Below are positions 9,913 through 12,769 of a stretch of 12,769 bases of DNA, piece after piece (within the stretch, counting starts at the first letter, position 1; each line of letters begins with the position of its first letter). Under the pieces are notes generated by a model, which saw only the letters and a program-made list of their open reading frames with translations, did no database searches and was not told the DNA's origin. Position numbers and translations under genes: made by a program. Source of the stretch: an uncultured Clostridia bacterium (lineage in GTDB: Bacteria; Bacillota_A; Clostridia; Christensenellales; Aristaeellaceae); assembly GCA_947166205.1 (NCBI GenBank), contig CAMVDI010000035.1:1-12769 (forward strand), written 5' to 3'.

Positions 9913-10446
9913 ATGGATATCGGAAAGCGCATCCGCCAGCTGCGGGTCCGGAACGGGCTGACCCAGGCGGAGCTGGCCAGCCGGTGCGAGCTGACCAAGG
10001 GCTTCGTCTCCCAGCTGGAGAACGGCCTGGCCACGCCGTCCCTGCCCGCCCTGATGGACCTGGTGGAGGCTCTGGGGACGAACATGTCCGCGTTCTTCTC
10101 CGAGGAGGAGGAAACCAAGCTGGTTTTTCATCAGGAGGATTTCTTTGAGGACAACCGGGATCATCTGCAGATCCGCTGGGTCGTTCCCAACGCCCAGAAG
10201 AACGCCATGGAGCCCATCCTGCTGAAGATCAATCCCCATCAGGATTCCAAGGTCATGCCTCCCCACGAGGGGGAGGAGTTCGGCCTGGTGCTCTCCGGAT
10301 CGGTCCAGCTGATCCTCGGGGGCCGGAAGGAGAAGGTCCGCCGGGGCGAAACCTTCTATCTGAAGGGGGACCAGGAGCACTTTCTGCGGAACGAGGGGGC
10401 GTCCCCGGCCCAGGTTCTCTGGATCACGACCCCGCCGTCCTTCTGA
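9913..10446 (+). CDS. XRE-family transcriptional regulator with cupin sensor domain
   Basis: A 177-residue DNA-binding regulator. Residues 3-62 form an XRE helix-turn-helix, with GLTQAELASRCELTKGFVSQ (15-34) as the helix-turn-helix core. Residues about 100-173 form a small cupin barrel: PPHEGEEFGLVLSG with His118 and Glu122, then GETFYLKGDQEHFLRN with His156. This layout is the same as in PuuR-like and other XRE-cupin regulators, which bind a small ligand in the cupin and control its uptake or breakdown. The gene directly precedes potAB-like genes, with 78 bases between them and no terminator, so it most likely regulates them and itself in response to a polyamine; this is inferred from position. 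AGAAGG is six bases before the ATG. Family call is secure, ligand is not. Confidence 0.94.
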   Translation: MDIGKRIRQLRVRNGLTQAELASRCELTKGFVSQLENGLATPSLPALMDLVEALGTNMSAFFSEEEETKLVFHQEDFFEDNRDHLQIRWVVPNAQKNAMEPILLKINPHQDSKVMPPHEGEEFGLVLSGSVQLILGGRKEKVRRGETFYLKGDQEHFLRNEGASPAQVLWITTPPSF

Positions 10447-10524: not shown

Positions 10525-12105
10525 ATGCGCAAACTGATCGAGTTTCAGAACATCGTCAAGAGCTTCGACGGCCAGGTGGTCCTGAAGGGCGTGAACCTGA
10601 ACATCTATGAAAACGAATTCGTCACGCTGCTGGGGCCTTCCGGCTGCGGAAAGACCACCCTGCTGCGGATTCTGGGCGGCTTTCTTGAGCAGGACGAGGG
10701 CACGGTCATCTTTGACGGGAAGTGCATCGACCGGGTGCCGGCCTACAGGCGGGAGATCAACACCGTGTTCCAGCGCTACGCGCTTTTTCCCCATCTGAAC
10801 GTATACGACAACATCGCCTTCGGCCTGCGGATCAAGAAGATGGGCCGGGATCTGATCGCCCAGAAGGTGAACCGGATGCTGAGCCTGGTGAACCTGGAAG
10901 GATATGAAAAGCGCAGCGTGACCAGCCTTTCCGGCGGCCAGCAGCAGCGGGTGGCCATCGCCCGGGCGCTGGTCAACGAGCCCAACGTGCTGCTGCTGGA
11001 CGAGCCCCTGGGCGCCCTGGACCTGAAGCTGCGGAAGGAGATGCAGCGGGAGCTGAAACGGATTCAGCAGGAGGTGGGCATCACCTTCATCTTCGTCACC
11101 CACGATCAGGAGGAAGCCCTGACCATGAGCGACAAGATCGTCGTGATGAACGCGGGCTCCATCGAACAGATCGGGACCCCCCTGGAGATCTACAACGAAC
11201 CCGCCAACGCCTATGTGGCCCGGTTCATCGGCGAGAGCAACATCGTGGACGGCGTGATGAAGGCGGACTGCAAGGTCCGGTTTGACGACAGGGTCTTCGA
11301 GTGCGCGGACTTCGGATTCCGGCCCGACGAGCCGGTGGACGTGCTGATCCGGCCGGAGGATCTGACCGTGGTGAAGCCGAAGGACGGCGTCATGCGCGGC
11401 GAGGTGAAAAATGTGGTTTTCAAGGGCGTGCACTATGAGCTGATGGTGGAGACCCGGACCGGAACCAGCAAGACCGTGAAGATGCACGTGGTCACCTCCC
11501 ACGACATCTCCAACCCCCAGGCCGGGGAAAAGATCAGCGCCAACGACTTCTATGTGGACTCCGATGACCTGGAGAACAAGGAGATGACGGACAGGGACTT
11601 CATCTCCATCGCCAACGCCCAGGCCTGGAACGACGAGAACCGGGACCTGTCCATCACCCGGGTTTCCCACAATATCCAGAAGACCCCCGGGGTCTATCAG
11701 ATCACCTTCGGCACGGACAAGGGCACGGAGGTGACGGTCAAGGTCTATGTGGTTCATCCCGAATACGTGGAGGATCCCCGGCACAATATCGGCATCAGCG
11801 CGCTGGACTTCTTCATCACCCCGGAGGAGATCCAGGAATCCATGGCCATCTCCACGGACCTGAAGACCTGGGCCAGCGCGGAAGCATGGAACCTGCAGGA
11901 CGATTCCTCCGTCGAGATCACGGACGTCAAGTTCGACTTCGATCCCTCCCAGGTGCAGGAGGGCTCCTATGAAATTACCTTCGCCACCCGGGGCCGGGTA
12001 TACAAGGTGGAGACCACCGACCGGCTGGAGGTGGGGGACCGGGTCGGCCTGGACTTCGGCCCGGAGGATATCCATGTCATGCATAAGGAAGTGGTCGACG
12101 TATGA
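10525..12105 (+). CDS. potA: PotA-like polyamine ABC importer ATPase with a large insertion in the TOBE domain
   Basis: This is the cytoplasmic ATPase that powers spermidine/putrescine uptake together with PotB, PotC and PotD. The ATPase part (residues 1-235) is complete: Walker [10 protein letters not shown] (37-45), signature LSGGQQQR (135-142), Walker B VLLLDEP (155-161), D-loop GALD, switch His193. The TOBE half begins as usual with [19 protein letters not shown] (292-310), and its usual ending [16 protein letters not shown] is found only at 504-519. Between them lie about 170 extra residues (about 325-495) with two tandem repeats, 337-410 and 424-497, so the protein is 526 residues instead of 350-380. 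The frame is uninterrupted. GGGAGG is nine bases before the ATG, and the stop overlaps the next start (ATGA). The ATPase is certain; the polyamine substrate is inferred from PotB and the regulator. Confidence 0.93.
11533..11754 (+). repeat. First beta-rich repeat inside the PotA-like protein
   Basis: Residues 337-410 start with [13 protein letters not shown], pass through [16 protein letters not shown] and end with [10 protein letters not shown] and VTVKVYVV. The last strand pattern (G-Y-ITF-T, then alternating Val/Lys) is that of Ig-like repeats in Gram-positive surface proteins. It aligns with the next copy without large gaps. Confidence 0.75.
11794..12015 (+). repeat. Second beta-rich repeat inside the PotA-like protein
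   Basis: Residues 424-497 repeat the pattern: [13 protein letters not shown], then [17 protein letters not shown], then [10 protein letters not shown]. Matching positions to the first copy include ISA-DF, A-AW, the SIT/EIT triplets and G-Y-ITF-T. The copies are clearly related but diverged, so the duplication is not recent. Confidence 0.75.
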
Positions 12106-12769
12106 AATCCTTCTTCCGGATGAGCTATCCCTACCTGCTGTGGATCGCGCTCTTCATCGTCGCGCCGATGCTCATGATCCTGCTGTACGCGGTTACCCGC
12201 TCCTCCAGCGGGGCGGTCACCTTCAAGTTTACGCTGGAAAACTTTTCCCGGTTTCTGACGGATCCGACCTTTCTGAAGGTGCTCTGGACCTCGCTTCGGA
12301 TCGCGCTGCTCACCACCCTGTTCTGCATCCTGATCGGATACCCCGCGGCGCTGTTTATCGCGGGGCTGCCGGAAAAGCGCCAGACCCTCATGGTGCTGCT
12401 GCTGACCCTGCCCATGTGGATCAACATGCTGCTGAAAACCTATGCCTGGCGCGGCATCCTGATGAACTTTGACCTGGAGAGCGAGATCAAGGTCTTCATC
12501 GGCATGGTGTACGACTTCCTGCCCTACATGATTATCCAGATCCATACGGCCATCGCCAAGATGGATCCGAACCTGAAGACGGCGGCTTACGACCTGGGGG
12601 CCAACCCCTGGAAGACCTTCCTGAAGGTGACCCTGCCCCTGAGCGTGCCGGGAATCATCTCCGGCATCACGCTGGTTTTCCTGCCCGCGGTATCCAGCTT
12701 CGTGATTCCGAAGCTGCTGGGCGGCGGAAACTATGTGCTGATCGGCAACCTGATCGAAACCTATTTCCT
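12102..12769 (+). CDS. potB: PotB-like polyamine ABC importer permease, 5' part (3' end outside window)
   Basis: This is an inner-membrane permease of a spermidine/putrescine-type importer. The first 222 residues are present; the family is usually about 270-290. Hydrophobic segments lie at about 10-31, 64-88, 95-112, 132-149 and 184-205. The cytoplasmic loop that docks on the ATPase is the EAA-type motif [20 protein letters not shown] (161-180), with Thr160 in place of the usual Glu. [12 protein letters not shown] and [11 protein letters not shown] are typical PotB wording, but the stretch between them ([16 protein letters not shown]) looks about 20-25 residues shorter than in the PotB proteins I recall. 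It overlaps the ATPase gene by four bases (ATGA), so the subunits are translationally coupled. potC and potD would be expected to the right of the window. Confidence 0.93.

Follow-up and report, generated by a model that had tools for sequence, protein, structure and literature searches.

Why would the cytosolic ATPase of a nutrient importer carry domains of a kind that belongs on the cell surface? This unexpected combination is raised by a 12,769-nucleotide stretch of DNA from an uncultured Clostridia bacterium (contig CAMVDI010000035.1; hereafter the window), in which the potA gene encodes the ATPase of a predicted polyamine importer with two immunoglobulin-like (Ig-like) repeats inside its TOBE domain. 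We find that this is a real and conserved domain insertion, undescribed in the literature that we found by title and abstract search: no PotA with an Ig-like insertion appeared in the titles or abstract beginnings searched, most subscription papers lying outside that coverage. As for its role, we see about an even chance that a surface-kind repeat pair, spliced into the cytosolic TOBE domain of a PotABCD importer ATPase, acts there as a regulatory module.

The interrupted protein is an otherwise complete PotA

The window protein belongs to the PotA family, as its sequence passes the cut-offs of both NF043075 (561.3 bits, cut-off 550) and TIGR01187 (367.6 bits, cut-off 355.6). Pfam places ABC_tran at residues 20-162 and TOBE_2 in two stretches (48.8 bits, cut-off 21), the better of them at 273-337. 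The ATPase motifs are intact and the TOBE domain is complete, judging by Pfam and by the 342 residues aligned to Escherichia coli PotA (8y5f). A complete PotA ATPase had already been recognised in a preliminary description of the locus, made from the letters alone, and it is borne out by these matches. The same holds for the working-looking protein proposed there: the frame is uninterrupted, a GGGAGG-like site lies 5' of its start, and its end overlaps the downstream potB gene by ATGA (12102-12105). In relatives (61 loci, those with enough sequence) potB follows in 60 of 60, potC in 60 of 60 and potD in 56 of 56; potC and potD of the window genome lie outside the window. From family models and gene order we thus predict the ATPase of a PotABCD polyamine importer. 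The protein begins with MRKLIEFQN and, by eye, has neither a signal peptide nor a C-terminal anchor, so it is not a surface protein anchored by an LPXTG motif or a membrane segment.

In a sequence search of solved structures, E. coli PotA chains match residues 3-315 or 4-315 of the window protein (best 60 of 590 matches), and four loci on viral contigs match residues 1-313 only. A frameshift, a misassembly or an artefact of one genome is ruled out, since 2771 of the 3122 candidates have a match to residues 300-500 (E <= 1e-3); the best 120 of these 2771 are mostly 525-528 residues long, with a few shorter or longer.

Two permuted repeats lie in the turn of a TOBE hairpin

In an insert-free relative (L120) the TOBE hairpin reads HYEIVVAT-EN-REFKIHTTD. 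Insert-bearing PotA proteins have the first hairpin strand, then about 178 residues, and then a second-like strand (RVYKVETTD in the window, RIFKIHTTD in L048). An insertion between two TOBE ends had been proposed at residues 325-497; its place in the TOBE domain stands, while its borders shift, starting about 13 and ending about 8 residues earlier (about 312-489). We set these borders by eye from shared strand motifs, to within 3 residues either way. The first alignment comprised six insert-bearing PotA against five insert-free ones, two with C-terminal additions and one odd short one. This small alignment puts the gap behind the second TOBE strand, whereas a larger one places that strand as in the by-eye reading.

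The repeats themselves, previously described at 337-410 and 424-497, are real: their local BLOSUM62 score is 85, and none of 2000 shuffles reached it (mean 24.8, maximum 52). Their extent needed revision, because the unit is longer and permuted and the last strand of the second repeat (492-497) belongs to TOBE. From the sequence, the insert appears to run strand B, Ig body, strand A, turn, strand B, Ig body, strand A, that is, as two tandem circularly permuted units; aligned in this way, residues 304-396 and 390-486 score 122, a score given without shuffle comparison.

A pair of surface-kind repeats would then have been spliced, probably once, into the beta-hairpin turn of this regulatory domain, and recombination between look-alike hairpins would account for the neat splice. 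The first hairpin, made of a TOBE strand and an insert strand, resembles the hairpin between the repeats, with 0 of 2000 shuffles scoring as high in the window and 0-9 of 2000 in six other proteins. Across seven proteins, the last and middle hairpins are less alike (0 to 231 of 2000 shuffles as high), and the first and last show no clear likeness (52 to 1896 of 2000). The idea that all hairpins of the insert are alike is therefore only partly borne out: first and middle exceed chance, middle and last do so less, first and last do not.

The repeats are akin to those of surface proteins

Structure prediction, put forward earlier as the check on the insertion, gives folded Ig-like repeats and leaves the TOBE domain around them intact, rather than an insert devoid of folded domains. 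The predicted fold of repeat 1 matches solved Ig-like domains (InlK 4l3a, ZmpB INT 7jrl, a Big_3 domain 2kpn). In family searches, the insert received no Pfam or NCBIfam name above cut-off at E <= 10; Pfam Big_3 (PF07523) is not listed for it at E <= 10, and reaches 17.1 bits in a relative (L058) against a cut-off of 21.2.

A profile built from 16 PotA repeats was run on genomes; these searches scored first-look candidates only, and the genome draws used for counts come without completeness values. In eight genomes of the tried loci it found PotA-sized frames only, with two matches each. Of the 392 genomes in a phylum draw around Holdemania massiliensis, 45 match (counts made by hand from the rows): 39 have the repeat pair in a PotA-sized frame (524-555 residues), and six (G181, G218, G353, G355, G359, G378) have matches in non-PotA frames only. 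By eye, four of the fetched non-PotA frames (L100, L102, L103, L106) end in LPXTG plus a membrane segment and two (L101, L105) in a hydrophobic tail without LPXTG; signal-like starts are seen in L102, L103 and L105, the other large frames being cut at the start. Finding the repeats in anchored frames agrees with the earlier view that they are of an extracellular type.

Small beta-sandwiches might have come to resemble each other by convergence and not by common descent. We consider this very improbable, because a profile of PotA repeats alone reaches large non-PotA frames of one genome with E-values as low as 3.8e-19 and, in a different genome, a small frame at 7.3e-13. Likewise, a repeat-1 profile finds 36 repeats (E < 1e-3) in eight fetched proteins, although most single matches are weak (12-43 bits, one of 58) and a repeat-2 profile finds only two matches there, which overlap. 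By predicted fold and sequence, the PotA insert thus appears akin to surface-protein Ig-like repeats of other Bacillota.

Two small frames among those fetched (L104:1000-1671 and L107:593-1396; 223 and 267 residues) show, by eye, a signal-like start, one Ig-like repeat and a membrane segment. Both adjoin kinase-like genes, L104 also a response-regulator-like gene, and their products are possible extracellular sensing partners.

Insert-bearing PotA proteins form one clade

A survey of homologues had been recommended in the preliminary description; it does find the insert in relatives, and what it reveals is a conserved one-clade subfamily instead of a one-off. The possibility that the region is an ordinary, already described C-terminal domain is not supported either, as the searches made gave no description of it. 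Figures for the window's family were taken from the genome of its nearest relative (L005), a metagenome-assembled genome (MAG) of rumen Clostridia. In draws around it, the repeat profile matches 2 of 299 genomes of the phylum, 2 of 101 of the order and 11 of 100 of the family. A PotA-like match (E <= 1e-110) occurs in 88 of the 100 family genomes and in 177 of the 392 genomes of the Holdemania draw, and the insert is absent from most PotA-like frames among the matches listed for these two draws. By record title (61 loci), the carriers are rumen and gut Clostridia MAGs, Holdemania massiliensis, a Faecalitalea MAG, other Erysipelotrichaceae and one Oscillospiraceae MAG.

The trees drew on 121 rows, of which 45 carry the insert (the window, 24 of the 61 record-titled loci and 20 of 23 further genes) and 76 are others; L193, where no frame was found, and the odd L119 were left out. 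In a careful tree of 65 rows, built on the core alone with insert columns removed and rooted on two hand-picked rows, all 33 insert-bearing proteins form one clade (98/94), and 99% of 200 bootstrap trees need only a single change. Seven insert-free PotA make up the sister group (87/95; genomes G382, G261, G317, G397, G353, G355, G359); the last three of these genomes carry surface-type repeats, and the other four have no profile match. Insert-bearing rows also fall into a single clade (88) in a quick tree of 106 rows, which does not settle the order of the sisters. The insertion is probably of single origin on this sequence evidence, and whether it is read as gain or loss depends on the choice of root. 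In the careful tree the window's Clostridia group nests among Erysipelotrichaceae-titled rows, apart from the insert-free PotA of L005's own family, which points to transfer, although MAG titles may be wrong.

Its sequence shows the insert to be under purifying selection. The ratio of nonsynonymous to synonymous substitution rates (dN/dS), taken from six comparisons of the window with proteins of equal length (a seventh was of another length), was 0.09-0.20 for the insert, 0.10-0.23 for the TOBE part and 0.04-0.09 for the ATPase part. Could it still be a tolerated passenger, shuffled in by recombination, folding on its own, harmless and without function? Insertions are easily tolerated at a hairpin turn, and many conserved insert residues look structural. 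On the other hand, every PotA of the 39 Holdemania-draw genomes and of 11 genomes of L005's family has two repeat matches, dN/dS is low (below that of the TOBE part in four of the six comparisons, above it in two), and the insert was kept after the apparent transfer; we therefore regard a functionless passenger as improbable. The inserts for the conserved-residue survey were cut from chosen full-length PotA, so that their all spanning both repeats is no independent count.

Some further PotA variants were encountered. One genome (G154) holds two different insert-bearing potA genes (L109 and L110). In L125, L126 and L164-L167, PotA proteins of 488-509 residues have an apparent second TOBE-like domain at the C-terminus, another enlargement of the same region, and they branch apart from the insert-bearing clade. 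The 339-residue PotA frame of L119 (1354-2373, minus strand) looks as though frameshifted at the TOBE hairpin, where its sequence parts from that of its relatives.

An acidic arm may control uptake

The insert is markedly acidic. Per 100 residues it carries a net charge of -12.6, where the TOBE part has -6.3 and the ATPase part -0.4 (42 of 66 alignment rows, just over half from the rumen Clostridia group), and the PotA repeats have -12.7 and -14.7 against -4.6 in 36 surface repeats. Acidic residues occupy columns 345, 347 and 348 in 100, 94 and 98% of 54 PotA first repeats and in 3, 11 and 33% of the 36 surface repeats; at E434 and E435 every one of the 54 PotA has an acidic residue. For E. 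coli, the authors of the PotABC structure state that spermidine lowers PotABC ATPase activity, suggest its binding to the negatively charged regulation domain, and say that polyamine feedback needs further investigation (PMC11414716). The acidic insert and this spermidine effect together make polyamine feedback the first hypothesis to test.

The insert probably has a role in uptake control. In this view the acidic double-Ig arm would be a cytosolic regulatory module that works on the TOBE domains of the dimeric PotA and tunes ATP hydrolysis. Feedback by intracellular polyamine or another cation on this arm, by analogy with what is proposed, and unproven, for E. coli PotA, is the version that we judge most likely, tentative as it is. 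A more specific and rather doubtful version is that a surface Ig array, spliced in via look-alike hairpins, gained acidic residues on both repeats and was re-used to sense intracellular polyamine directly and shut its own importer.

Several observations weigh against a regulatory acidic Ig pair. The fold-search rows cover mainly model residues 10-91 and barely touch repeat 2, whose assignment rests on its sequence likeness to repeat 1. The full model has a pTM of 0.54, its ATPase part being of middling confidence with blocks down to 49, and Foldseek gives a single match at E <= 0.001, a chitinase, with a TM-score of 0.30. D345, D347, D348, E434 and E435 lie where helices begin in the model and may be no more than helix caps; for this reason we do not take them to prove a cation site. 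Cytosolic proteins are expected to be acidic, and the acidity of the insert may only reflect cytosolic life. Finally, the TOBE part of insert-bearing PotA is not more acidic, with a mean net charge of -10.0 (n=45), -17.4 in the sister group (n=7) and -9.6 in others (n=63), six rows with long C-terminal additions being left out.

The main rival is that the arm serves for docking or oligomerisation, binding a cytosolic partner or the arm of another PotA and so coupling uptake to another signal; it is possible, to a similar degree as cation feedback. Ig-like domains are commonly binding modules, and the regulatory domain of MalK, which binds MalT or EIIA, offers a precedent. The location in a regulatory domain and the two repeats in each PotA-sized frame matched would suit such an arm. 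No partner gene was found, in a survey that covered only the upstream helix-turn-helix (HTH)-cupin regulator, which adjoins insert-free potA too.

Regulation by additional domains has parallels among importer ATPases: MalK, ModC, MetN and OpuAA carry C-terminal or other additional domains for sensing substrate or binding regulators. None of them is known to have surface-type Ig repeats. Known PotA, such as that of E. coli, has the same ATPase and TOBE domains as the window protein, which passes the cut-offs of both PotA models and whose relatives have the gene order with potBCD; E. coli PotA lacks the insertion of about 178 residues. Surface Ig-like domains such as InlK, ZmpB INT and Big_3 share the predicted fold of repeat 1, the tandem layout and the sequence kinship found here; unlike them, the insert has no visible signal peptide, is cytosolic, lies inside an ATPase, is more acidic and stays below the Big_3 cut-off.

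Another ABC ATPase with an Ig-like beta-sandwich is Wzt of an O-antigen exporter, whose C-terminal carbohydrate-binding domain recognises the exported polysaccharide (PMC6286764). The likeness noted here is one of architecture: Wzt serves an exporter and has its domain at the C-terminus, whereas the window insert is internal, has TOBE on both sides and is followed by an importer-type permease gene.

One insert clade and its insert-free sisters form a natural with/without pair for studying TOBE regulation of type I importers, and the same pair could address whether PotA senses cytosolic polyamine.

Gene neighbourhood

Features of the window around potA, with their coordinates and the evidence for each
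Feature	Coordinates	Strand	Evidence
HTH-cupin (PuuR-like) regulator, upstream of potA	9913..10446	+	Pfam, NCBIfam
potA, insert-bearing polyamine importer ATPase (predicted), 526 aa	10525..12105	+	Open reading frame; NF043075 and TIGR01187 above cut-off
ABC ATPase domain with Walker motif, residues 1-236	10525..11232	+	Translation, Pfam, motifs
TOBE/regulatory domain, first part, residues 237-311	11233..11457	+	Pfam, structural alignment, alignment with insert-free PotA
Insertion, residues about 312-489, two apparent permuted hairpin-Ig units	11458..11991	+	Alignments with insert-free PotA, self-alignment, models
Ig-like repeat 1, residues 334-412	11524..11760	+	Shuffle-tested alignment, profile, models, fold search
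Ig-like repeat 2, residues 423-489, last hairpin completed by TOBE strand 491-497	11791..11991	+	Alignment, profile, models
TOBE domain, last part, residues 490-526	11992..12102	+	Pfam, structural alignment, alignments with insert-free PotA
potB permease gene, overlapping potA, cut by window end	12102..12767	+	Open reading frame, Pfam, NCBIfam

Among loci with enough upstream sequence, the HTH-cupin regulator stands beside insert-bearing potA in 23 of 42 Clostridia loci and in 14 of 16 other record-titled loci; it was not found upstream of potA in L005 and 18 other insert-bearing loci of those 42. As insert-free potA has it for a neighbour too (29 of 30 and 3 of 7 loci), we rejected it as a dedicated partner of the insert. 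Downstream of potB, three loci (L057, L058, L062) have, in the position of potC and potD, frames of about 630 residues that look like a fusion of permease and binding protein.
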